From: Allobosea sp.
GTDB lineage: Bacteria; Pseudomonadota; Alphaproteobacteria; Rhizobiales; Beijerinckiaceae
Assembly: GCF_017308075.1 (NCBI RefSeq)
Contig: NZ_JAFKFX010000058.1
Location: 1-33,672 of the forward strand
Length of the DNA stretch: 33,672 bases
Direction of reading: 5' to 3'
The stretch's first letter is position 1. Every line of letters begins with the position of its first letter. Shown piece by piece: positions 16,916 to 32,071 of the stretch. A program made the position numbers and the translations under genes. Below the pieces are notes generated by a model. That model saw only the letters and a list, made by a program, of their open reading frames with translations. It did no database searches and was not told where the DNA came from.

Positions 16916-16959
16916 GAAACAATTTGTCACGATCGTATCGAGGCCGGCCGCGCTATAGC
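16916..16959 (+). promoter_or_regulatory. Putative response-regulator box and -10 upstream of the two-component operon
   Basis: The box GAAACAATTTGTCAC (16916-16930) is followed after 23 bp by TATAGC (16954-16959), itself preceded by CGC. The box matches 13 of 15 bases of GAAACAATATGTAAC at 19217-19231, in front of the copper operon, where the spacing to a -10-like TAATTT is 22 bp. This geometry fits an OmpR/PhoB-type activator covering the -35 region. Autoregulation is inferred. Confidence 0.5.
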
Positions 16960-17098
16960 ATCGGACCGAAAAGCGGGATCCACTGTTCGGAAAACTCCGA
17001 TGCGATAACAAAAAGATGGATCACCGTGACTGCGTCCGAACCGATGCGCGGTGATCTGGAAGAAGCCTTTGCCACGAACGACCAGGGACCAGCATGCC

Positions 17099-17845
17099 GT
17101 GAACGACACCGCCGCGAGCCCCGCGCCGCTCGGCTCGCCAGAGGCCCATATCCTCGTCGTCGATGACGATCCGCAGATCCGTTTTCTGGTCAGCCGCCTG
17201 CTCCGGGCCAATGGCTACCGCGTCAGCGCCGCCGCCGACGGCCGTGAGATGGCCGACAGCCTGAAGGGGGCGCCGGTCGACCTGATCGTGCTCGACGTCA
17301 TGCTGCCCGGAGCCTCCGGCTTCGAGCTCTGCCGCGAGCTGCGTCGCAGTTCCGCCGTCCCGGTGATCATGTTGACGGCGCGCGGCGAGGAAAACGAACG
17401 TATCTCGGGCCTGGATCTCGGCGCCGACGATTATCTCGCCAAGCCGTTCAGCCCCGGCGAGCTGGTCGCACGGATCAACGCGCTGATCCGGCGGGCCCGG
17501 CGGGCGGTCAGCCAGCCCGGTGCTGCCGCGGTGCGCAGCTATGGCTTCTCCGGTTGGACCCTCGACATCGTCCGCCGCGAACTGGTCGATCCGCAAGGCA
17601 GCGTCGTCGATCTCAGCACCGGCGAGTTCGACATGCTGCGCGCCTTCGTCGAGGCACCGGGCAAGGTGCTGTCGCGGGAGGCGCTGCTCGACATCGCCAA
17701 GAACCGCGTCGCCACCGGCTTCGACCGCGTCGTCGACGTGCAGATCAGCCGCCTGCGCAAGAAGATCGAGGCTGGCGGCGATGCCATGATCAAGACCGTG
17801 CGCGGCACCGGCTACATGTTCCTGCCGGAGGTCGAGCGTCGATGA
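17099..17845 (+). CDS. OmpR/PhoB-family response regulator
   Basis: A 248-residue two-domain regulator. The receiver has the acidic pocket (Asp22-Asp24), the phosphoacceptor Asp66 in 'LIVLDVMLPG', Thr93 in 'MLTAR' and Lys115 in 'YLAKPF'. The C-terminal winged helix ends with 'ISRLRKKIEAGG' and 'IKTVRGTGYMF'. The GTG at 17099 follows an AGGGA site; an upstream ATG at 17051 in the same frame would add 16 residues. It overlaps the kinase gene by 4 bp (ATGA). It lies immediately upstream of a copper operon that shares its promoter box, so I infer it activates copper-defence genes, analogous to CusR/CopR, although copper itself has not been shown to be the signal. Confidence 0.95.
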   Translation: MNDTAASPAPLGSPEAHILVVDDDPQIRFLVSRLLRANGYRVSAAADGREMADSLKGAPVDLIVLDVMLPGASGFELCRELRRSSAVPVIMLTARGEENERISGLDLGADDYLAKPFSPGELVARINALIRRARRAVSQPGAAAVRSYGFSGWTLDIVRRELVDPQGSVVDLSTGEFDMLRAFVEAPGKVLSREALLDIAKNRVATGFDRVVDVQISRLRKKIEAGGDAMIKTVRGTGYMFLPEVERR

Positions 17846-19218
17846 ATTGGCGCGCCGCGGATACGATCCAGTCGCGCACCATCGTCGTGCTGTTGCTGGG
17901 GCTGGGTCTTTTCCACCTGCTCAGCCTGTGGAGCTATCAGATCGGGCTGCGTTCCGAGGTCGATCTCGCCAATGAGAGCCGGTTGGCCGAACGGTTGGTC
18001 ACTATCAAGCGCGCCGTGCTGGCGTTGCCGGTCGAGGAGCGCGAGACGATCGCGCATTCGCTTTCGGGCGGCCCGATCGAAGTCCATTGGAGCGCGACGG
18101 AGCTCACTGCCGGGGGCGCCGGGGCCAGCGCCGGACCCGAGTTCGAGCCCCTGCGGGGCAGGCTGCTCGAACTTGCACCAGAACTCGCCCAGGAGCGCCT
18201 GATCCTCTCGGCGCCGCGCCTGCCGGATGGCGGCATCGACCCCCATCAGTTCCAGCTCTCGATCAGGGCGCCTGACGAGGGCTGGGTCAATTTCAGCGTG
18301 ACCAAGCTCAGCGGCCCGCATGGCAGCATGCACGGCATCGTCTGGTCGACGAGCCTGATGGGGCTCGGCGTCATCCTCGTCGCGATCCTGATGGTGCGCT
18401 GGCTGACAAGGCCGCTGCGCATGTTCGCCGATGCCGCGCGCCGCGCCTATGTCGGGGCGGAGGCACCGCAATTGCCGGTCGAGGGGCCGGCCGAGGTGCG
18501 CGAGCTCGCCAGTGCCTTCAACGACATGCAAAACCGCATCAAGCGTCTGATCGACGAGCGTACCCAGACGCTCGCTGCGATCTCGCATGATCTGAAGACG
18601 CCGCTGACCCGGCTGCGGCTGCGGGCGCAGGAGCTGCGCGAGGCGAAGGGCGCGCGGGACGAGGCGCTGCCGCCGGCGATCGATGCCGATCTCGACGAGA
18701 TGGAGGCGATGCTCGATGCCAGCCTGACCTTCCTGCGCGGCGAGCGCAGCGAGGAGCCACTGCGCGATTTCGATCTCGCCGCCCTGCTGGAGACGATCAA
18801 GGACGATGCGCTCGATGCCGGCCACGACGTCGTGCTGGAAGGGCCGGGCAAGCTGCGCTGGCGTGGCCGGCGCCTCTTGCTTAAGCGGGCTCTGACCAAT
18901 CTCGTCCACAATGCCGCGCGCTATGGCGGCCCGGTCCGGATCAGCCTGGCGCAGGACGCCGGCGGAGCGGAGATCCTGATCGACGATGACGGTCCAGGTC
19001 TGCCGGAGACGGAGCTCGAGCGGGTCTTCATGCCCTTCGTGCGCCTCGAAACCTCGCGCAGCCGCGAGACTGGCGGCGTCGGTCTCGGCCTGACGATCGC
19101 ACGCAGCGCGCTGCGCGGCCATGGCGGCGACGTCACCTTGCAGAACCGGCCCGAGGGCGGTCTGCGGGCGCGCGTCCGGCTGCCGCAGGCCGAGGTTTCG
19201 GCCCGTTCCGGCCGCTGA
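17842..19218 (+). CDS. Membrane sensor histidine kinase
   Basis: A 458-residue kinase: TM1 about 14-33, a periplasmic sensor domain of about 130 residues, TM2 about 170-188, HAMP about 189-241, and the HisKA phosphoacceptor His249 in 'AAISHDLKTPLTRL'. The catalytic domain has the N box 'NLVHNAARYG' (Asn357), 'IDDDGPGLP' and 'GGVGLGLTIA'. The organisation is EnvZ-like. The sensor region contains scattered His and Met residues (for instance 'HGSMHG' next to TM2) that could bind metal; this is only suggestive. The start overlaps the regulator stop (ATGA). The copper operon begins 81 bp downstream, and the operator box for it starts at the kinase stop codon. Confidence 0.95.
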   Translation: MNWRAADTIQSRTIVVLLLGLGLFHLLSLWSYQIGLRSEVDLANESRLAERLVTIKRAVLALPVEERETIAHSLSGGPIEVHWSATELTAGGAGASAGPEFEPLRGRLLELAPELAQERLILSAPRLPDGGIDPHQFQLSIRAPDEGWVNFSVTKLSGPHGSMHGIVWSTSLMGLGVILVAILMVRWLTRPLRMFADAARRAYVGAEAPQLPVEGPAEVRELASAFNDMQNRIKRLIDERTQTLAAISHDLKTPLTRLRLRAQELREAKGARDEALPPAIDADLDEMEAMLDASLTFLRGERSEEPLRDFDLAALLETIKDDALDAGHDVVLEGPGKLRWRGRRLLLKRALTNLVHNAARYGGPVRISLAQDAGGAEILIDDDGPGLPETELERVFMPFVRLETSRSRETGGVGLGLTIARSALRGHGGDVTLQNRPEGGLRARVRLPQAEVSARSGR

Positions 19219-19259
19219 AACAATATGTAACACCGCTCCGGAGGCCGTTTCGCTAATTT
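19217..19259 (+). promoter_or_regulatory. Putative response-regulator box and -10 upstream of the copper operon
   Basis: The box GAAACAATATGTAAC (19217-19231) starts within the kinase stop codon and is followed after 22 bp by TAATTT (19254-19259). It is 13/15 identical to the box in front of the regulator gene. If TAATTT is the -10, the box is centred near -42, as for class II activation by OmpR-type proteins. Confidence 0.5.
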
Positions 19260-19299: not shown

Positions 19300-19554
19300 A
19301 TGCCGACCGAGCCTCCACCGCATCCTTTCCGACGTTCCTTTCGGACGCGCAATGTCGCGGCCGTCCTGGCGCTCGCCGTATTGGCGGCGGGCTGCAGCCC
19401 GACCTATCCGCTCGCCGGTCGCCACCCGGCCGACCCGAGCGTCGCCGTGCCGGCGCCATCCTATGTCGCCGTTTCCGGCGCCAGGGCGCTGCGCCCGGCC
19501 GAGCCCAAGGGCTGGCAGGATCTCAACCGCCAAGTGACGCCGAAGGGGCAGTGA
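19300..19554 (+). CDS. Small outer-membrane-type lipoprotein of unknown function
   Basis: An 84-residue protein with a basic N-terminus, a hydrophobic stretch and a clear lipobox 'LAAGC' (Cys about 33), leaving a mature chain of roughly 50 residues rich in Pro and Ala. There is no Asp just after the cysteine, so outer-membrane sorting is expected. I do not recognise the family. It is the first gene of the copper operon, and its stop overlaps a GTG of the TolC-like gene, so it may accompany that protein in the outer membrane. That role is inferred from position. Confidence 0.75.
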   Translation: MPTEPPPHPFRRSFRTRNVAAVLALAVLAAGCSPTYPLAGRHPADPSVAVPAPSYVAVSGARALRPAEPKGWQDLNRQVTPKGQ

Positions 19555-19556
19555 TC

Positions 19557-21011
19557 GTGAAGCAGCGGAACCTGTCCCTCCATGGCCGCCGCGGCCTGCC
19601 GGTCGCGCTCGCCGTCCTTCTCGGAGGCTGCGCCTCATTCTCGCCCGATGCCGGGACCGGCGTCGCCCGTGACGTCGCCTTCGCCGAGCTCAACAAGGAT
19701 GTCGTCAAGATCACTGATGCGACCGGGGCGATCAGCGCCAAGGCGCGCGTCGACCAGCTTTTGAAGCAGCCGCTCAGCGCCGATGCCGCCGTCCAGGTCG
19801 CCCTGCTCAACAATCGTGGCCTGCAGGCCGCGTTCAACGAGCTCGGCATCGCCGAGGCACAGATGGTCGCTGCCAGCCTGCCGCCCAATCCGACACTCGG
19901 CATCTCCAGCCGCTCGGGGCGCTTCGCTCTCGAGATCGAGCGGCAGATCGCCGGCAGCATCTTCGCACTGGTGACGCTGCCGGCGCGGGCCGAGATCGCC
20001 CGCGAGCGCTTCCAGGCCGCGCAATTGCGTACCGCCGAGACGGTGCTGAAGCTCGCTGCCGACACGCGCCGGCAATATCACCGCGCCGTCGCGGCCAATG
20101 CCCAGGTCGGCTTCATCGAGCAGGCCAAGGGCTCGAGCGACGCGGCCGCCGAATTGTTCAAGCGCCTTGGCGAATCCGGCGGCGTCAACAAGCTCGACCA
20201 GGCCCGCGAATTCGCCTTTGATGCCGAGCTCGGAGCCCAGCTCGCCCAGGCGCGGCTCGTGCAGCGCCAGGAACGCGAGCGGCTGGTGCGCCAGCTTGGC
20301 CTCTGGGGCGACGAACTCAAGTTCAAGCTGCCCGGTATGCTCGCCCCGTTGCCGCGGCTGCAGAGCGTCAAGGCGATCGAATCCGAGGCGCTGCGCAAGC
20401 GCATCGATCTCAAGGTCGCCCGCGCCGATCTCGATGCGCTCGCCGGGGCGCTCGGCCTGACCAATGCGACGCGCTTCGTCAACGACATCGATCTGCTCGG
20501 CCGCCGCACCTATGACCGTGGCCGCAGCCTGTCACATGCCGGCGAAGTCGAGCGCGAGACCAGCCGCAGCCGCACGGTCGAACTGGAGATCGAGATCCCG
20601 ATCTTCGATTTCGGCCAGTCCAAGGTGGTGCAGGCCGAGCAGACCTACATGCAAGCCGCTAACAAGTTGGCGGAGAAGGCGGTCAACATCCGCTCCGAGG
20701 CGCGCGAAGCCTATGTCGGCTATCGCGCCACCTACGACATTGCCCGCCAGTACCAGAACAATGTCCTGCCGCTGCGCAAGATCATCCAGGACGAGTCGCT
20801 GCTGCACTATAACGGCATGCTGATCGACGTGACGCAGCTCATCACCGATGCGCGCGCCCGCATCCTCTCGAACGTCGCGGCGATCAATGCGCGGCGGGAT
20901 TTCTGGATCGCCCATACCGACCTCAAGCATGTCGTCATCGGCGGCGGGGCGGGCGGGGGCGGGGCCACCGTCGCTGCCGCGTCCGGCGGCGAGGCCGGCG
21001 GCGGCCATTAG
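19557..21011 (+). CDS. TolC-family outer-membrane efflux lipoprotein
   Basis: A protein of about 484 residues of the outer-membrane factor family, with a lipoprotein signal ('VLLGGCAS') and long alpha-helical repeats in both halves ('VQVALLNNRGLQAAFNELGI' core VALLNNRGLQAAF; 'EIEIPIFDFGQSKV' in the second repeat). The C-terminus is an unusual Gly-rich tail. I prefer the GTG at 19557, 8 nt after AAGGGG; a GTG at 19551 overlaps the previous stop but is too near that site. No adaptor or pump gene lies in this operon, which is odd for a TolC partner. The neighbours are a multicopper oxidase, cupredoxin and CusF-like protein, so it probably exports copper from the periplasm with a pump encoded elsewhere. 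Confidence 0.9.
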   Translation: MKQRNLSLHGRRGLPVALAVLLGGCASFSPDAGTGVARDVAFAELNKDVVKITDATGAISAKARVDQLLKQPLSADAAVQVALLNNRGLQAAFNELGIAEAQMVAASLPPNPTLGISSRSGRFALEIERQIAGSIFALVTLPARAEIARERFQAAQLRTAETVLKLAADTRRQYHRAVAANAQVGFIEQAKGSSDAAAELFKRLGESGGVNKLDQAREFAFDAELGAQLAQARLVQRQERERLVRQLGLWGDELKFKLPGMLAPLPRLQSVKAIESEALRKRIDLKVARADLDALAGALGLTNATRFVNDIDLLGRRTYDRGRSLSHAGEVERETSRSRTVELEIEIPIFDFGQSKVVQAEQTYMQAANKLAEKAVNIRSEAREAYVGYRATYDIARQYQNNVLPLRKIIQDESLLHYNGMLIDVTQLITDARARILSNVAAINARRDFWIAHTDLKHVVIGGGAGGGGATVAAASGGEAGGGH

Positions 21012-21029: not shown

Positions 21030-22466
21030 ATGACCATCTCACGCAGGGGCTTCATCGGCACCTCCGGCCTCGTCGTCGCCGCGGCCGGCGCGGTCTCCGG
21101 TCGCACCGCCTTCGCCTCGGTGCCGGAGGCGCCGACCATGAAGGAGGCGACGACCCAGGCGCCGCTCGTCCCGACCACGGGGCCGGACTACCAGCCGGTC
21201 GCGACGCTGAACGGCTGGACCTTGCCCTGGCGCATGAACGGCGACTGGAAGGAGTTCCACCTCGTCGCCGAGCCGGTCGAGCGCGAGCTGGCGCCCGGCA
21301 TGAAGGCCTATCTCTGGGGCTATAACGGCCAGTCGCCGGGGCCGACCATCGAGGCGGTCGAGGGCGACAAGGTCCGCATCTTCGTTACCAACAGGCTGCC
21401 GGAGAGCACCACGATCCACTGGCACGGCCAGCGTCTGCCGAACGGCATGGACGGCGTCGGCGGGCTGACCCAGCCGCATATCCCCACGGGCAAGACCTTC
21501 GTCTACGAGTTCGAGCTGCGGCGCTCGGGCACCTATATGTACCATCCCCATTCCGACGAGATGGTCCAGATGGCGATGGGCATGATGGGCTTCTTCGTCG
21601 TCCATCCCAGGGACCCGGCCTTTCGCCGCGTCGATCGCGATTTCGTCTTCCTGCTCAACGCCTTCGATATCGAACCCGGCTCCTATGTGCCGCGGGTCGC
21701 CGAGATGACCGACTTCAACATGTGGTGCTGGAACAGCCGTGTCTTTCCGGGCATCGACCCCTTCGTCGTGGGCAAGAATGACAAGGTCCGGATCCGCTTC
21801 GGCAATCTGACCATGACCAATCACCCGATCCATCTGCATGGCTACGAATTCAAGGTCTCGTGCACGGATGGTGGCTGGGTCGATCCGGCAGCGGCCTGGG
21901 ACGAGGTCTCGATCGACGTCGCCGTCGGCCAGATGCGCGCCTTCGACTTCGTCGCCGACGAGCTCGGCGACTGGGCGATCCACTGCCATAAATCGCATCA
22001 CACCATGAATGCCATGGGGCATTCGGTGAAGAACTATATCGGCGTCAGCAAGAAGGACCTTGCCAAGCGCATCGCCAGGATCGCGCCGGGCTACATGCCG
22101 ATGGGCTCGACCGGTATGGGCGAGATGGGCGCGATGGAGATGCCGCTGCCGGCCAACACCTTGCCGATGATGACCGGCTTCGCGCAGTTCGGGCCGGTCG
22201 AGATGGGCGGCATGTTCTCGGTGCTGAAGGTCCGCGAGGGGCTGGCGAAGAACGACTACAAGGATCCGGGCTGGTTCAAGCACCCCGAAGGCACCGTCGC
22301 CTATGAGTACAAGGGGCCGAAGCTCGTCGAGGCGCCGCGCACGGAGGGGCCCGACAGCGGTGCGCCTTCGGTCGACTGGCGTGCCAGGGATCCGCGCAAG
22401 CCGAAGCTCGGTCCGGACGGCAAGCTGCTTCCCCGGGCCAAATCCGGCGGACATTCCCATCATTGA
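21030..22466 (+). CDS. Periplasmic multicopper oxidase, CopA/CueO-like
   Basis: A 478-residue multicopper oxidase with a Tat signal ('SRRGFIGTSG'). All copper ligand motifs are visible: 'HWHG' (His130, His132), 'HPH' (His172, His174), 'HPIHLHG' (His265, His268, His270) and 'HCHKSHHTMNAM' (His318, Cys319, His320, His324 and axial Met329). A Met-rich stretch follows (about 354-386, with repeated 'MGxM' patterns) that could bind or relay Cu(I). It would oxidise Cu(I) to the less toxic Cu(II) in the periplasm. It starts 18 bp after the TolC-like gene, and the cupredoxin gene follows after 26 bp. Confidence 0.94.
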   Translation: MTISRRGFIGTSGLVVAAAGAVSGRTAFASVPEAPTMKEATTQAPLVPTTGPDYQPVATLNGWTLPWRMNGDWKEFHLVAEPVERELAPGMKAYLWGYNGQSPGPTIEAVEGDKVRIFVTNRLPESTTIHWHGQRLPNGMDGVGGLTQPHIPTGKTFVYEFELRRSGTYMYHPHSDEMVQMAMGMMGFFVVHPRDPAFRRVDRDFVFLLNAFDIEPGSYVPRVAEMTDFNMWCWNSRVFPGIDPFVVGKNDKVRIRFGNLTMTNHPIHLHGYEFKVSCTDGGWVDPAAAWDEVSIDVAVGQMRAFDFVADELGDWAIHCHKSHHTMNAMGHSVKNYIGVSKKDLAKRIARIAPGYMPMGSTGMGEMGAMEMPLPANTLPMMTGFAQFGPVEMGGMFSVLKVREGLAKNDYKDPGWFKHPEGTVAYEYKGPKLVEAPRTEGPDSGAPSVDWRARDPRKPKLGPDGKLLPRAKSGGHSHH

Positions 22467-22492
22467 GGCGCAATCGCGAACGGAGCACGCCG

Positions 22493-22981
22493 ATGAAGAC
22501 GCAGATCAGATCCATCGCCCTTGGCGCGGCCGCGGCGCTCGCCCTGTCGACGGCGGCCTTTGCCGGTCCCGGGGGCGCCGGCCACGGGCATGGCGACGAG
22601 ACCGCCTATGGCAAGCCGGGCGATCCGAAGAAGAAGGCGCGCATCGTCCAGGTCTCGATGACTGAGCGCGACGGCAAGATGCTGTTCATTCCGGACCGGA
22701 TCGAGGTGCGCCGCGGCGAGCAGGTCCGCTTCCAGTTGCGCAACAAGGGTGAGCTCGACCATGAGCTGGTGGTGGCGACGCTGGAGGAAAACCTCAAGCA
22801 CGCCATCGAGATGCAGAAAAATCCCGACATGGAACATGACGACCCGAACGCCAAGCGCCTTGCCCCGAAGAAAAACGGCGAAATCCTCTGGCAGTTCACC
22901 AAGGCCGGTGAGTTCGATTTCTCCTGCCTGATCCCCGGTCACCGCGAAGCCGGCATGACCGGCAAGATCATCGTCAAGTGA
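22493..22981 (+). CDS. Periplasmic cupredoxin (type 1 copper protein)
   Basis: A 162-residue protein with a Sec signal (about 1-24, 'ALSTAAFAG') and a His/Gly-rich start to the mature chain ('GHGHGDE'). The type 1 copper ligands are all there: His90 ('ELDHELVV'), Cys145, His150 and Met155 in 'FSCLIPGHREAGM'. The ATG at 22493 follows a CGGAG site; an in-frame ATG at 22463 overlaps the oxidase stop and would spoil the signal peptide. It probably carries electrons or copper for the multicopper oxidase encoded just upstream. The insertion between about 95 and 125, rich in Met, His and Asp, may be an extra metal site. Confidence 0.93.
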   Translation: MKTQIRSIALGAAAALALSTAAFAGPGGAGHGHGDETAYGKPGDPKKKARIVQVSMTERDGKMLFIPDRIEVRRGEQVRFQLRNKGELDHELVVATLEENLKHAIEMQKNPDMEHDDPNAKRLAPKKNGEILWQFTKAGEFDFSCLIPGHREAGMTGKIIVK

Positions 22982-23013
22982 ACCGCGACCCCTACGAAGA
23001 CAGGAGTTCTCCC

Positions 23014-23298
23014 TTGCGTATGACCATTTCCAGCTTGGCTCTCGCCACCTTGCTCGCCGCGCCGGCGCTCGCCCAGAACGCGCCGCTCGTCACCGGCACT
23101 GTCAAGAAGGTCGACACTGCCCAGGGCAAGCTCACCGTCGACCATGGCCCGATCAAGAACCTCGACATGGACGCGATGACGATGGTGTTCCGCGCCGGTG
23201 ATCCGGAGATGCTCAAGACCGTCAAGGCCGGTGACAAGATCAAGTTCACGGCCGAGCGGGTGAACGGTCAGATTACGGTCACAAAGATCCAGAAATGA
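23014..23298 (+). CDS. CusF-like periplasmic copper-binding protein
   Basis: A 94-residue exported protein (signal about 1-20, 'LLAAPALAQ') with the CusF core 'VDHGPIKNLDMDAMTMVFR' (43-60). CusF-type Cu(I) ligands His44, Met55 and Met57 are present; the Trp that stacks on copper in E. coli CusF is replaced, with Met52 in the neighbouring position. I favour the TTG at 23014, 7 nt after AGGAG; the ATG at 23020 is 13 nt away and the ATG at 22978 would spoil the signal. It overlaps the next gene by 4 bp (ATGA). It probably hands periplasmic copper to an efflux partner. Confidence 0.9.
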   Translation: MRMTISSLALATLLAAPALAQNAPLVTGTVKKVDTAQGKLTVDHGPIKNLDMDAMTMVFRAGDPEMLKTVKAGDKIKFTAERVNGQITVTKIQK

Positions 23299-23573
23299 GC
23301 CCTCGGCGCGCCCTGGCGCTCACCCGGCCGGCCTGCCTGGCCGCGGTGTGCGTCCTGGGTGCGCCGCAGGCAGGCTTCGGCAGCGACGGCAATCTGCAAG
23401 CCGTACTGCTCGAGGCCGGTTGCCCCCGTTTCCGGCTCGAGACGCTGTTCGACCGGGACGGGGTGACGAGCTATCGTGCGAATTGCTTCGGCTCGGCGCA
23501 CAAGCTCGTCATCGTCACTTGCATCAAGGGGGTATGCGTTCGCGAAAGGACGCAGGAGGAGCAGCCGGAATGA
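23295..23573 (+). CDS. Small exported four-cysteine protein of unknown function
   Basis: A 92-residue protein with a likely signal peptide (about 1-29) and a short mature chain with four cysteines (43, 64, 76, 81), arranged as C-x20-C-x11-C-x4-C, and a short charged tail. I do not recognise a family. It is translationally coupled to the CusF-like gene (ATGA) and precedes the DUF411 gene, so it belongs to the copper operon. The cysteines could form two disulfides or a metal site. Confidence 0.75.
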   Translation: MSPRRALALTRPACLAAVCVLGAPQAGFGSDGNLQAVLLEAGCPRFRLETLFDRDGVTSYRANCFGSAHKLVIVTCIKGVCVRERTQEEQPE

Positions 23574-23608: not shown

Positions 23609-24058
23609 ATGCTTACGCGTCGTGGCCTGATCGCCGGAGCTCTTGCCTGTTCCGCGTCGCTGCCGCTCGCGGCCCAGGGGGCCGCTCCGGTCGTCACCGT
23701 CTATCGCAGCGCCTCCTGCGGCTGCTGCGGCGCCTGGGTCGACCACATGAAGAAGGCGGGCTTCGAGACCAAGGTGGTGATGACCGAGGAGTTGGCGGCT
23801 CGCAAGCGCGAGTTCGGCGTGCCCGATGCCGCCGAATCCTGCCACACGGCCATGGTCGACGGCTATTTCGTCGAAGGGCATGTGCCTGCCGCCGATGTCC
23901 GCCGCCTGCTGCGCGAGCGGCCGCAGGCCCGCGGCCTCGCCGTCCCGGAGATGCCGGTCGGTTCGCCCGGCATGGAAGTCCCCGGCGTCAAGGCGGATCG
24001 CTATGACACCTGGCTGATCGCCAAGGACGGCTCGCACACCGTCTTCGCCAGTCACTGA
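23609..24058 (+). CDS. DUF411-family metal-binding periplasmic protein
   Basis: A 149-residue exported protein (signal 1-24 with an RR pair, 'LTRRGLIAG'). It has the DUF411 hallmarks: thioredoxin-like 'VYRSASCGCCGAW' with Cys37, Cys39 and Cys40, 'SCHTAMVDGYFVEGHVP' with Cys78, His79 and His91, and 'MPVGSPGMEVPG' near the C-terminus. The family is widespread in copper and other metal operons, where it is thought to bind metal. An AGAAGGAGAG site precedes the ATG. It is the last gene of the operon and is followed by a strong hairpin. Confidence 0.93.
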   Translation: MLTRRGLIAGALACSASLPLAAQGAAPVVTVYRSASCGCCGAWVDHMKKAGFETKVVMTEELAARKREFGVPDAAESCHTAMVDGYFVEGHVPAADVRRLLRERPQARGLAVPEMPVGSPGMEVPGVKADRYDTWLIAKDGSHTVFASH

Positions 24059-27485: not shown

Positions 27486-28703
27486 ATGATTCTGGGAACG
27501 ATCCGTCACGCCCTGTTGGGCACCGCCTTGGCCGCCGGCGTCTCGCTCGCGGCGCTCGCCATCGCCGTCAACGGCTCCGACAAGGCACAGGGCGATACTG
27601 CGCCTGCCGCTGCGCCGCCGACGGCGGTGTCCGTCGCCCTCGTCGAGCAGCACGATCTCGTCAGCTGGGCCGAGTTCTCCGGCCGGCTCGAGGCAATCGA
27701 GCGCGTCGAGATCCGTTCGCGCGTCACCGGCGTCGTCGAGCAGGTGCATTTCGCCCAGGGCGCGCTGGTCAAGCAGGGCGACCTGCTCGTCAGCATCGAC
27801 CAGGCTCCTTACCGGGCCGAGTTCGAGCGCGCGCAGGCGCAGCTTCTCGCCGCCGAAGCCCGTGTCGCCCTCGCCGCCAACGAGCATGAGCGCGGCCAGA
27901 AGCTGATGTCGTCGCAGAACGTCTCGCAGCGCGATCTCGACACGCGGCTGAACGCGCTGCGTGAGGCGCAGGCAAACGAGCGTGCCGCCCGCGCCGCTTT
28001 GCAATCGGCGCGGCTCAACCTCGACTACACCCAGATCCGCGCCCCGATCGGCGGTCGCATCGGCCGCCTCGAGGTTACCCTCGGCAACCTCGTCGCCGCC
28101 GGCGCAAATGCGCCGCTGCTGACGACGCTGGTCTCGGTCGATCCGGTCTATGCCGGCTTCAACGCCGATGAGGGCTCGCTCCTCAAGGCGCTGTCGACGC
28201 TGCCGGTAGAGCCCGGCAAGGCCCGCGATCTGAACCGCATCCCGGTGCAGATGACGACCGCCGCCAACGAGGCAGCGCCGGTCTCCGGCCATCTCAGCTT
28301 CGTCGACAACGGCATCGATGCCGCGACCGGCACGGTTCGCGTCCGGGCGATCTTCGACAACAAGGACGGCGCCCTGCTGCCCGGCCAGTTCGTGCGCCTG
28401 CGCATGGGCCAGGCGAAGAGCGAGCCGGCCCTCGTCATCAACGAGCGCGCTGTCGGCACCGACCAGAACAAGAAGTTCGTCTTCGTCGTCGGCAAGGATC
28501 ACAAGGCGGCCTGGCGCGAGGTCACGCTCGGCGCCGCGGCCGAAGGGCTGCGCATCGTCACCAGCGGGCTCGAAGCCGGCGAGCAGATCGTCGTCAACGG
28601 CCTGCAGCGCATCCGGCCCGGCGCGAGCGTTGCCCCCGAGCAGGTGCCGATGGCCGAGCGCTCCGAATTGAAGGAGCCCAGGACCGAGCTCGCGCAGCAC
28701 TGA
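27486..28703 (+). CDS. RND efflux periplasmic adaptor (membrane fusion protein)
   Basis: A 405-residue AcrA/MexE-type adaptor. It has an N-terminal hydrophobic anchor without a lipobox cysteine, a split lipoyl domain ('FSGRLEAIERVEIRSRVTG' core; 'YTQIRAPIGGRIGR'), a coiled-coil hairpin between about 105 and 180 and the beta-barrel and C-terminal domains ('DNKDGALLPGQFVRLRMG'). It starts 52 bp after the hydrolase. The pump gene follows only after 185 bp, which contain a palindromic repeat. It would join the pump to an outer-membrane channel not encoded in this operon. Confidence 0.94.
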   Translation: MILGTIRHALLGTALAAGVSLAALAIAVNGSDKAQGDTAPAAAPPTAVSVALVEQHDLVSWAEFSGRLEAIERVEIRSRVTGVVEQVHFAQGALVKQGDLLVSIDQAPYRAEFERAQAQLLAAEARVALAANEHERGQKLMSSQNVSQRDLDTRLNALREAQANERAARAALQSARLNLDYTQIRAPIGGRIGRLEVTLGNLVAAGANAPLLTTLVSVDPVYAGFNADEGSLLKALSTLPVEPGKARDLNRIPVQMTTAANEAAPVSGHLSFVDNGIDAATGTVRVRAIFDNKDGALLPGQFVRLRMGQAKSEPALVINERAVGTDQNKKFVFVVGKDHKAAWREVTLGAAAEGLRIVTSGLEAGEQIVVNGLQRIRPGASVAPEQVPMAERSELKEPRTELAQH

Positions 28704-28712
28704 GTCTCCGCC

Positions 28713-28808
28713 GTCATGGTCGGGCTTGTCCCGACCATCCACGTCTTCGCCTCGCCGATCGAGCGCGGTGCCCAAGACGTGGATGCTCGCCACAAGGGCG
28801 AGCATGAC
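28713..28808. repeat. Two-hairpin palindromic repeat, copy A
   Basis: The outer arms GTCATG (28713-28718) and CATGAC pair. Hairpin 1 (ATGGTCGGG / CCCGACCAT) and hairpin 2 (ATGCTCGCC / GGCGAGCAT) flank a central inverted repeat ATCCACGTCTT / AAGACGTGGAT around a 26-nt spacer. The whole can fold as a cloverleaf. Copy B (32095-32185) is its reverse complement, with a different spacer. It lies between the adaptor and pump genes. Confidence 0.85.
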
Positions 28809-28888
28809 GGGTGGAGCGATACTCCCCGTTTTCCGCCCCGCCGGCCGCTTCGGGACCGGCGGGGAAGCCGCCTTGAAGGGGCACCCCA

Positions 28889-31800
28889 ATGAACCTCTCG
28901 AAGTTCTTCATCGACCGGCCGATCTTCGCCGGCGTCCTCTCCGTCCTGATCCTGATCGCCGGCCTGCTCTCGCTGCGCGTGCTGCCGATCTCGGAATATC
29001 CCGAGGTCGTGCCGCCGACCGTGGTGGTGCGGGCCCAGTATCCCGGCGCCAATCCGCGCGTCATCGCCGAGACCGTGGCGACGCCGATCGAGGAGCAGAT
29101 CAACGGCGTCGAGGGCATGCTCTATATGTCGAGCCAGGCGACGACCGACGGCGTGATGACGCTGAACGTCACCTTCCGCCTCGGCACCGACCCGGACAAG
29201 GCCCAGCAGCTGGTCCAGAATCGCGTCTCCCAGGCGGAGCCACGCCTGCCGGAGGAGGTGCGCCGCCTCGGCGTCACCACCATCAAGAGCTCGCCCGACC
29301 TGACGATGGTGGTGCACATCACCTCGCCGAACGGCCGCTACGACATGACCTATCTGCGCAATTACGCCGTGCTCAACGTCAAGGACCGGCTGGCGCGCAT
29401 CGACGGCGTCGGCCAGGTCCAGCTCTTCGGCTCGGGCGACTATTCGATGCGCGTCTGGCTCGATCCGCAGAAGGTCGCCGAGCACGGCCTCTCGCCTTCC
29501 GACATCGTCCGCGAAATCCGCGCCCAGAACGTCCAGGCCGCGGCCGGCGTCATCGGCGCCTCGCCGAGCGGGCCGGGGCTCGACCTGCAGCTCTCGGTCA
29601 ATGCGCAGGGCCGTCTCGCCAGCGAGGAGGAGTTCGGCGAGATCATCGTCAAGACCGCCCCGAGCGGCGCCGTCGTCCGCCTGAAGGACGTCTCGCGCAT
29701 CGAACTCGGTGCCGCTGAATACGCGCTGCGCTCGCTGCTCAATGGCAAGTCGGCCGTCGCAGTGCCGGTCTTCCAGGCGCCGAACTCGAACGCCATCGCC
29801 ATCGCCGACCAGGTCCAGGCGACGATGCGCGAGATCAAGCAGAACATGCCGGAAGGCGTGGACTACTCGATCGTCTACGACACCACCCAGTTCGTCCGCG
29901 CCTCGATCAAGGCGGTGATCACCACGCTGCTCGAGGCGGTGGCGCTGGTCGTGCTCGTCGTCATCGTCTTCCTGCAGACCTGGCGCGCCTCGATCATCCC
30001 GCTCGCCGCCGTGCCGGTCTCCGTCGTCGGCACCTTCGCGGTGATGTATCTCTTCGGCTTCTCGATCAACGCGCTCTCGCTGTTCGGCCTCGTCCTGGCG
30101 ATCGGCATCGTCGTCGACGACGCCATCGTCGTGGTCGAGAATGTCGAGCGCAATATCGAGAACGGGCTTTCGCCGCGCGAGGCGACCTACAAGGCGATGC
30201 GCGAGGTCTCCGGCCCGATCATCGCGATCGCGCTCGTCCTCGTCGCGGTCTTCGTGCCGCTCGCCTTCATCTCGGGCCTGACCGGCCAGTTCTACCGCCA
30301 GTTCGCGCTCACCATCGCGATCTCGACGGTGATCTCGGCGATCAACTCGCTGACCCTATCGCCCGCGCTCGCCGCGCTGCTGCTGCGCGGGCACGACGCC
30401 CCCAAGGACGCGCTGACCCGCTTCATGGACAAGCTGTTCGGCTGGTTCTTCCGCGGCTTCAATCGCTTCTTCAACCGTTCCTCCGAGGCCTATGGCCGCG
30501 GCGTCACCCGCATCCTCGGCCGCAAGACGCTGATGATCGTGATCTATGTCGGCCTCGTCGCGTTGACCGGCGTGCTCTTCCGCGCCGTTCCCAGTGGCTT
30601 CGTGCCGGGCCAGGACAAGCAGTACCTCGTCGGCTTCGCCCAGCTCCCCGACGCGGCGACGCTCGACCGTACCGAGGACGTCATCCGCAAGATGGACGAG
30701 ATCGCGCTGAAGCATCCCGGCGTCGAGAACGCGATCTCCTTCCCGGGCCTGTCGATCAACGGCTTCACCAATTCGTCGAACGCCGGCATCGTCTTCGTCG
30801 GCCTGAAGCCCTTCGACCAGCGCAAGGACCCGTCGCTCTCGGGCAACGCCATCGCCATGCAGCTCAACAAGGAGTTTGCCGGCATCAAGGAGGCGTTCAT
30901 CGCGATGTTCCCGCCGCCGCCCGTCCAGGGGCTCGGTACCATCGGTGGCTTCAAGCTGCAGATCGAGGACCGCGCCGGCCTCGGCTACAAGGCGCTCGAC
31001 GAGGCGACCAAGGCCTTCATGGCCAGGGCCGCGACGGCGCCCGAGCTTGCCGGCATGTTCTCGAGCTTCCAGGTCAGCGTGCCCCAGCTCTATGCCGACA
31101 TCGACCGCACCAAGGCGCGCCAGCTCGGCGTCCCCGTCACCGATGTCTTCGAGACCCTGCAGATCTATCTTGGCTCATCCTATGTGAACGACTTCAACAA
31201 GTTCGGCCGCACCTACACGGTGCGCGTCCAGGCCGATGCGCCCTTCCGCGCCTATCAGGAGGACATCGGCAAGCTCAAGGTCCGTTCGCTCTCGGGCGAG
31301 ATGGTGCCGCTCTCGGCCGTGCTTAATGTCCGCACCGATGCCGGCCCCGAACGGGCCATGCGCTATAACGGCTTCCTCAGCGCCGACATCAATGCCGGCC
31401 CGGCCCCGGGCTATTCCTCGGGCCAGGCGCAGGACGCCGTCACCCGCATCGCTGCCGAGACCCTGCCCAAGGGTTTCGCCTTCGAATGGACCGAGCTGAC
31501 CTATCAGGAGATCCTGGCCGGCAATTCCGCCATCCTGGTTTTCCCGGTTGCGATCCTGCTCGTCTTCCTGGTGCTGGCGGCGCAGTATGAGAGCCTGACC
31601 CTGCCGGTTGCGATCCTGCTGATCATCCCGATGGGCCTGCTCGCGGCGCTGGCCGGCGTCTGGTGGAGCGGCGGCGACAACAACGTCTTCACCCAGATCG
31701 GCCTCGTCGTCCTGGTCGGGCTATCCGCCAAGAACGCCATCCTGATCGTCGAATTCGCGCGCGAGCTCGAATTCGAGGGCCGCACGCCGGTCGAGGCCGC

Positions 31801-32071
31801 GATCGAGGCCAGCCGCCTGCGCCTGCGGCCGATCCTGATGACCTCGCTCGCCTTCGTCATGGGCGTGGTACCGCTGGTGCTCTCGACCGGGGCGGGCGCC
31901 GAGATGCGCCAGGCCATGGGCATCGCGGTCTTCGCCGGCATGATCGGCGTCACCGCCTTCGGCATCTTCCTGACGCCGGTGTTCTACGTGCTGATGCGGA
32001 GGTTGTCGGGGAACAAGCCGCTGCGGCAGCATGGGGTGGAGGGGAGGGAGCACCTCGCCGAGGCGGCGTGA
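28889..32071 (+). CDS. RND multidrug efflux pump, HAE1 family (AcrB/MexF-like)
   Basis: A 1060-residue inner-membrane RND transporter, full length for the HAE1 family. It begins 'MNLSKFFIDRPIFAGVLSVL', shows the usual two six-TM halves with large periplasmic loops, and carries the proton-relay pair Asp410-Asp411 in 'GIVVDDAIVVVENVER'. The C-terminal half has 'GLSAKNAILIVEFAREL', including the conserved Lys. It would export drugs or solvents with the adaptor encoded upstream. The 185-bp gap to the adaptor holds copy A of the palindromic repeat, and copy B follows the stop by 24 bp. Confidence 0.96.
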   Translation: MNLSKFFIDRPIFAGVLSVLILIAGLLSLRVLPISEYPEVVPPTVVVRAQYPGANPRVIAETVATPIEEQINGVEGMLYMSSQATTDGVMTLNVTFRLGTDPDKAQQLVQNRVSQAEPRLPEEVRRLGVTTIKSSPDLTMVVHITSPNGRYDMTYLRNYAVLNVKDRLARIDGVGQVQLFGSGDYSMRVWLDPQKVAEHGLSPSDIVREIRAQNVQAAAGVIGASPSGPGLDLQLSVNAQGRLASEEEFGEIIVKTAPSGAVVRLKDVSRIELGAAEYALRSLLNGKSAVAVPVFQAPNSNAIAIADQVQATMREIKQNMPEGVDYSIVYDTTQFVRASIKAVITTLLEAVALVVLVVIVFLQTWRASIIPLAAVPVSVVGTFAVMYLFGFSINALSLFGLVLAIGIVVDDAIVVVENVERNIENGLSPREATYKAMREVSGPIIAIALVLVAVFVPLAFISGLTGQFYRQFALTIAISTVISAINSLTLSPALAALLLRGHDAPKDALTRFMDKLFGWFFRGFNRFFNRSSEAYGRGVTRILGRKTLMIVIYVGLVALTGVLFRAVPSGFVPGQDKQYLVGFAQLPDAATLDRTEDVIRKMDEIALKHPGVENAISFPGLSINGFTNSSNAGIVFVGLKPFDQRKDPSLSGNAIAMQLNKEFAGIKEAFIAMFPPPPVQGLGTIGGFKLQIEDRAGLGYKALDEATKAFMARAATAPELAGMFSSFQVSVPQLYADIDRTKARQLGVPVTDVFETLQIYLGSSYVNDFNKFGRTYTVRVQADAPFRAYQEDIGKLKVRSLSGEMVPLSAVLNVRTDAGPERAMRYNGFLSADINAGPAPGYSSGQAQDAVTRIAAETLPKGFAFEWTELTYQEILAGNSAILVFPVAILLVFLVLAAQYESLTLPVAILLIIPMGLLAALAGVWWSGGDNNVFTQIGLVVLVGLSAKNAILIVEFARELEFEGRTPVEAAIEASRLRLRPILMTSLAFVMGVVPLVLSTGAGAEMRQAMGIAVFAGMIGVTAFGIFLTPVFYVLMRRLSGNKPLRQHGVEGREHLAEAA

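Follow-up and report, generated by a model that had tools for sequence, protein, structure and literature searches.

Among the closest described systems is UzcRS from Caulobacter crescentus, a two-component activator linked with uranium, zinc and copper, for which a site of the form CATTAC-N6-TTAA, located 43 or 53 bp upstream of the transcription start, and 57 binding regions genome-wide have been reported (PMC8963506). For EnvZ/OmpR from E. coli, direct repeats consisting of two 10-bp half-sites are described, and the same source presents AgrR as a Type II activator with autoregulation and the inverted-repeat site ATKACANNNNTGTMAT (PMC7380067). CenR from Rhodobacter sphaeroides is reported to have the site TGA-N8-TGA and an envelope regulon (PMC9275681).

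The regulator-kinase pair considered here was found beside a copper operon in Allobosea sp. (Beijerinckiaceae), in a stretch of 33,672 nucleotides (contig NZ_JAFKFX010000058.1 of the assembly GCF_017308075.1), which was analysed as a whole and is called the window below. As far as the published account of UzcRS goes, the pair resembles it as an alphaproteobacterial two-component system and putative metal-linked activator with a similar site distance, but CATTAC-N6-TTAA is not found in its box, which reads GAAACAATWTGTMAC and stands at two promoters, the comparison being made by the published site alone. Both proteins have their best model scores with EnvZ and OmpR, and the box is a direct repeat like the site published for E. 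coli OmpR; however, that system is porin-linked, whereas copper genes are found here, and the scores remain below the curated cut-offs. With CopR, PcoR and AgrR, described as copper/silver regulators, the system shares a predicted two-component control of copper genes, but the published sites of these regulators are inverted repeats and the box is a direct one (0.58 for the inverted against 0.78 for the direct arrangement). This is in agreement with a preliminary description of the locus, made from its sequence, where the box was noted to be unlike the CusR-type palindrome. CenR, by its published description, is also an alphaproteobacterial OmpR-family regulator with a direct repeat of 10-bp period, and it differs in its site and in its envelope regulon. 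In our opinion, the system would work like other OmpR-family activators, and it stands outside the CztR/SilR/CopR subfamily by model score and box type. No recognized description of the box or the pair was met in the literature covered, outside which most subscription journals lie.

Regulator, kinase and copper operon of the window

The features of the locus are listed below, where tandem means the gene order regulator-kinase-box-operon.

16916-16930, + strand: box upstream of the regulator gene, GAAACAATTTGTCAC (pattern scan of window and genome)
16954-16959, + strand: -10-like hexamer TATAGC of the putative regulator promoter (sequence; spacing conserved in tandem loci)
17099-17845, + strand: OmpR-type response regulator, GTG start probable (PF00072, PF00486)
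17842-19218, + strand: EnvZ-like sensor histidine kinase (HAMP, HisKA, HATPase_c)
19217-19231, + strand: box upstream of the copper operon, GAAACAATATGTAAC (pattern scan of window and genome)
19254-19259, + strand: -10-like hexamer TAATTT of the putative operon promoter (sequence; all 7 tandem loci have TA at 22)
19300-19554, + strand: small lipoprotein-like protein of 84 aa (open frame; no family; homologues in the same place in relatives)
19551-21011, + strand: TolC-type outer membrane protein (PF02321)
21030-22466, + strand: multicopper oxidase (PF07732, PF07731)
22490-22981, + strand: cupredoxin (PF00127)
22978-23298, + strand: CusF-like copper-binding protein (PF11604)
23295-23573, + strand: protein of 92 aa, no family found (open frame; homologues in relatives)
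23609-24058, + strand: DUF411 protein, start read from the open frame (PF04214)

The regulator belongs to the OmpR/PhoB family, with PF00072 at 112.6 bits and PF00486 at 76.8 bits, both above the cut-off, and many OmpR-family structures were matched in a structure search with the whole protein. Its best NCBIfam model is the OmpR equivalog NF007005, with 231.9 bits against a cut-off of 331, and the best model of the kinase is EnvZ, with 205.7 bits against a cut-off of 415. The model of heavy-metal regulators CztR/SilR/CopR (TIGR01387) gives the regulator 144.9 bits, below its cut-off of 279.2. About 3.4 kb beyond the copper operon, at 27486-32071, the window also has an adaptor-like frame (405 aa) and a long pump-like frame (1060 aa), at which the window scan revealed no close box.

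Boxes and promoter spacing in the genome and in the genus

The two boxes are identical at 13 of 15 positions and lie on the + strand; TATAGC follows the regulator box after 23 nt, TAATTT follows the operon box after 22 nt, and CGC stands directly 5' of both hexamers. The agreement, the distances and the CGC, first pointed out in the preliminary description, proved correct. The kinase stop codon TGA (19216-19218) shares its last two bases with the start of the operon box, the junction reading TGA-AAC.

A scan of the window allowing up to 3 mismatches gave 2 matches against 0.33 expected, and two or more were also reached in 6 of 100 shuffles, so the window alone is weak evidence. In the genome (5.55 Mb), 4 matches were obtained at up to 2 mismatches against 0 for a reversed-pattern control, and the only places at 0-1 mismatch are the two boxes, 2.3 kb apart. 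An equal abundance of the box elsewhere in the genome, which would have spoken against the initial idea, is thus not observed. A looser pattern gave 12 places genome-wide against 5 for the control; among the 10 places besides the two boxes, a -10-like TA was found at 22 or 23 nt in none and at 33 nt in one. An open frame of at least 150 aa covers nine of the 10 places, which says little, because the operon box overlaps such a frame too, on the other strand. As for the separate copper-response regulon proposed earlier, the distinct type of the box holds good, but the word regulon was generous, since only two promoters here have a close box, and the regulon of this genome seems confined to those of the regulator and the copper operon.

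At the range of the whole order, the box alone tells little because reversed-control matches are common: a match at one mismatch occurs in 97 of 297 genomes, and those of the reversed control in many genomes too. Zero-mismatch boxes outside the window's genome are present in three more distant genomes of the order (L179, L180 and L181 in G253, G143 and G236), where no homologue of the pair or the operon was found in the 16-17 kb around them.

In the genus, taken to be Bosea, the channel protein is present in 40 of 67 genomes at 57 places, 53 of which were taken in, the four partial matches (two in G506 and two in G496) being left out. The box was expected at orthologous loci, and a match was found upstream in 53 of 53 operon promoters. 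Within 700 nt upstream, the match to GAAACAATTTGTAAC has 0 mismatches in 20 loci, 1 in 26, 2 in 3, 3 in 3 and 5 in one; accordingly, 52 of the 53 loci have the box with no more than 3 mismatches, and the remaining locus (L264, 5 mismatches) is unconvincing by sequence alone. The regulator is divergent from the operon in 46 loci, and the order is tandem in 7, the window included. A -10-like TA stands 22-23 nt past the operon box in all 53 loci, the distance being 23 in 43 of the divergent loci, 22 in the other 3 and likewise 22 in every tandem one. In addition, all 46 divergent loci have a second TA on the strand of the regulator, 33 nt out from the same box. Away from these offsets, TA is rare, occupying 0.2-0.5% of the operon-side positions and 1.3-1.6% of those on the opposite side. 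Because the genus rows are related, these results are given as counts and not as probabilities. When 18 divergent promoters less than 80% alike were compared, the box, GGAC after it and both -10 regions stood out, and the spacers drifted. Three genomes (G526 with L215, L250 and L260; G537 with L206 and L262; G524 with L210 and L263) combine a tandem copy of the operon with one or more divergent copies, each having its pair.

All 7 tandem loci have a separate box 5' of the regulator, and the best match in each is followed by TA at 22 or 23. The mismatches of this box number 1 (window), 1, 3, 4, 1, 2 and 2, the weakest case being that of G524, with 4 mismatches, about 260 nt upstream; outside the box, the upstream regions of the 7 regulators align poorly. 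These regulator-side boxes, together with the two-sided spacing at the divergent loci, support the autoregulation suggested in the preliminary description, and the geometry that it reported to be the same at both promoters recurs across the loci of the genus.

It is hardly credible that the similarity of the boxes results from chance or from a functionless local duplication. Chance can give at least 2 matches at 3 mismatches, as in 6 of 100 window shuffles, but the box and its spacing are conserved across the genus and the family while spacers and flanks have diverged.

Direct repeat and distribution of the box across the family

The box is a direct repeat of 10-bp period, GNMAC-N5-GNMAC, i.e., the tandem direct-repeat site of about 10-bp period that is a trait of the OmpR/PhoB family. 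Across the bacterial family, a kinase homologue at E 1e-60 or better is present in 42 of 199 genomes; 40 larger regions were taken, 37 of them with the regulator-kinase pair, which together with the window make 38 loci. The 38 loci were searched for GNMAC-Nx-GNMAC in two stretches, one covering 450 nt on the upstream side of the regulator gene and the other running from 15 nt ahead of the kinase stop to 300 nt past it. A spacer of x = 5 gave 29 matches, and every other x from 0 to 12 gave between 0 and 9. The identity over 22 distinct boxes is 0.78 at period 10, at most 0.30 at other periods and 0.58 at the best inverted axis, below the direct repeat, with the reservation that these boxes were partly picked by similarity, which favours the period-10 result. 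Comparison of the sequences thus establishes the conservation of the box, its repeat structure, its spacing and its going with the regulator family, the last of which has the exceptions given below.

In 12 of the 38 loci, the box begins within the kinase stop codon TGA and takes in its last two bases (window, 19216-19231; L145, L147-L152, L166, L168, L169 and L183). In Bosea sp. 685 (L271, 3551-3949), a small annotated gene lies between the kinase and the operon box, and the box is off the kinase stop codon.

In 9 of the 37 pairs, named the pump type, the box lies where the kinase gene ends and stands 5' of genes other than the copper operon. The genes after this box in L145-L149 and L157 are mostly those of an adaptor and a long RND-pump-like protein, only one of the two frames being cleanly picked in L147 and L146. 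The CusA/CzcA heavy-metal model scores the L145 pump at 764.7 bits, above its cut-off of 701.45, and the same domains were found in L149 and on the named plasmid of Peteryoungia desertarenae (L280). In eight loci of another clade, the box has the form GNCAC-N5-GTCAC. Of the 9 pump-type loci, 7 have the TA at 32 or 34, a looser placing than in copper loci, and 7 of the 8 loci of the GNCAC clade have it at 32; these distances of 32-34 are about one helical turn beyond 22/23. In Peteryoungia, one box is 5' of the regulator (TA at 33) and another after the kinase (TA at 32), and Methylorubrum extorquens AM1 has GACACACTTTGTCAC after the kinase with TA at 32. The sensor domain of the kinase (first part of 17842-19218) has a motif, AHxxS-x6-HWS, common to divergent, tandem and pump-type kinases; its residues could be metal ligands, which is a lead only.

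Positions 3 and 13 of the 22 boxes are A/A in 13, C/C in 4 and mixed in 5. All four C/C boxes come from a clade with DTLVSRLR in the stretch that we take to be the recognition helix, which elsewhere reads DVQ[IV]SRLR, and the half-site changes from GNAAC to GNCAC in the clade with the changed helix. The rule is not simple, because L167, with the helix DTQISRLR and a GACAC box, breaks it.

Upstream of 19 homologues of the operon outside the family, no match within 3 mismatches was found in the 1 kb scanned; one of them, L226, has a kinase homologue upstream, yet no box. Six plasmid operons, from Microvirga, Xanthobacter, Methylobacterium nodulans, Ancylobacter, Bradyrhizobium betae and Rhizobium etli, have no such pair annotated within 4 kb. 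The best match has 5 mismatches in five of these and, in Bradyrhizobium betae, 3 mismatches to the GACAC form, with no TA at 22, 23, 32 or 33. Since boxes are found at pump-facing pairs and none at the 19 outside operon homologues, it may be concluded that the box follows the regulator and not the operon.

The exceptions are as follows. The strict repeat is absent on both sides in 14 of the 38 loci; 6 of these (L144, L146, L161, L163, L171 and L175) have a nearer or looser form, and 8 (L154, L164, L172, L173, L176, L177, L178 and L182) gave no match with 3 or fewer mismatches in the scanned stretches, L172 showing a 3-mismatch match to a degenerate pattern in another scan. The divergent copper loci outside the genus have the box in 6 of 7 cases, and the seventh is L182, where the best candidate is GTTACGGTTTGTAAC, with 4 mismatches and TA at 32 towards the regulator. 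We consider L182 the most important exception, as it is a divergent copper-operon locus. Furthermore, 80 named relatives of the regulator (L064-L143, 39-54% identical) were scanned near the regulator for the strict direct repeat with TA at 22, 23, 32 or 33, and were dropped as support, with the repeat in 6 of 80 and most of these repeats unlike the box.

These distributions bear on the question of which protein binds the box. It seems unlikely that another OmpR-type regulator, such as a general envelope or osmotic one, is responsible and that the linked pair is only one of its targets: the only two close boxes in the genome are both at this locus, as would not be expected of a global regulator, the box accompanies the pair beside different targets, and operon homologues outside the family lack it. 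What speaks for such a regulator is that, according to the published sites, direct repeats are common to OmpR-family regulators, and that similar boxes occur at some unrelated OmpR-type loci (L092 and L113).

Predicted control of the copper operon and history of the pair

In our opinion, the linked OmpR/EnvZ-like pair most probably uses the box to activate both its own gene and the copper operon, as the comparative data suggest. Binding, phosphorylation, activation instead of repression, and copper as the signal are the parts of this scheme that we infer. The EnvZ-like kinase would sense a periplasmic metal, most likely copper, to judge by the target genes, and then phosphorylate the regulator, whose dimer would occupy both half-sites of GNMAC-N5-GNMAC in a head-to-tail arrangement, adjoining the -35 region on its upstream side. 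On the box, it would recruit RNA polymerase to its own promoter and to that of the seven-gene copper operon, so that the regulator would be under positive autoregulation and the genes for the oxidase, the cupredoxin, CusF and the outer-membrane protein would be induced. With the TA counted as -12/-11, the centre of the box is near -42/-43 in the 22/23 class or -52/-53 in the 32/33 class; this position, along with the head-to-tail binding reported for OmpR-family dimers, suits an activator abutting the -35 region.

Repression is possible for OmpR-family regulators, and we infer the direction of control here, so that the linked regulator might instead act from the box as a repressor, or mainly so, and be released by the signal. 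This is very unlikely, because the box is found 5' of the -35 region with two fixed spacings that differ by one helical turn, as suits an activator, and UzcR is reported to act from 43 or 53 bp upstream (PMC8963506). Moreover, no good TTGACA-like -35 was recognized by eye in the two promoters of the window.

Activation by the linked pair being the preferred reading, the history of the pair is also of interest. In its tree (38 rows), tandem pairs group with pump-type pairs with a support of 100/100, and a single clade of tandem and divergent copper pairs is rejected with p-AU 1.2e-6, a value to be taken with caution, as the two groups were named after a first tree. The copper pairs therefore form two lineages, which neighbour one kind of copper operon and have nearly the same box. 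A second exchange inside the tandem type was considered but is not claimed: a single tandem clade is rejected by a 12-row joint tree of channel and oxidase (p-AU 0.0075), but not by a 66-row tree of the channel (0.274). Plasmids carry both kinds of module: a tandem one was found in Bosea sp. 685, and a divergent one, which has GATACAATTTGTAAC, in Bosea sp. AS-1, where the plasmid is conjugative.

It may tentatively be proposed, with more doubt than confidence, that the pair is a portable control cassette, which carries the target promoter on the kinase stop codon, so that box and regulator move together and the targets are exchanged. If this is true, any operon landing downstream of the kinase would come under metal control.

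Summarizing the significance of these data, they provide a concrete predicted control circuit, with sites predicted to the base, for the copper operon of Bosea and its kin, which is not of the CusR/CopR type. They also represent a natural experiment in regulatory evolution, in which one box grammar, a 10-bp direct repeat with the -10 about 22/23 or 32-34 nt away, would serve related two-component systems at different metal-defence operons, and in which the half-site and the putative recognition helix change together in one clade.
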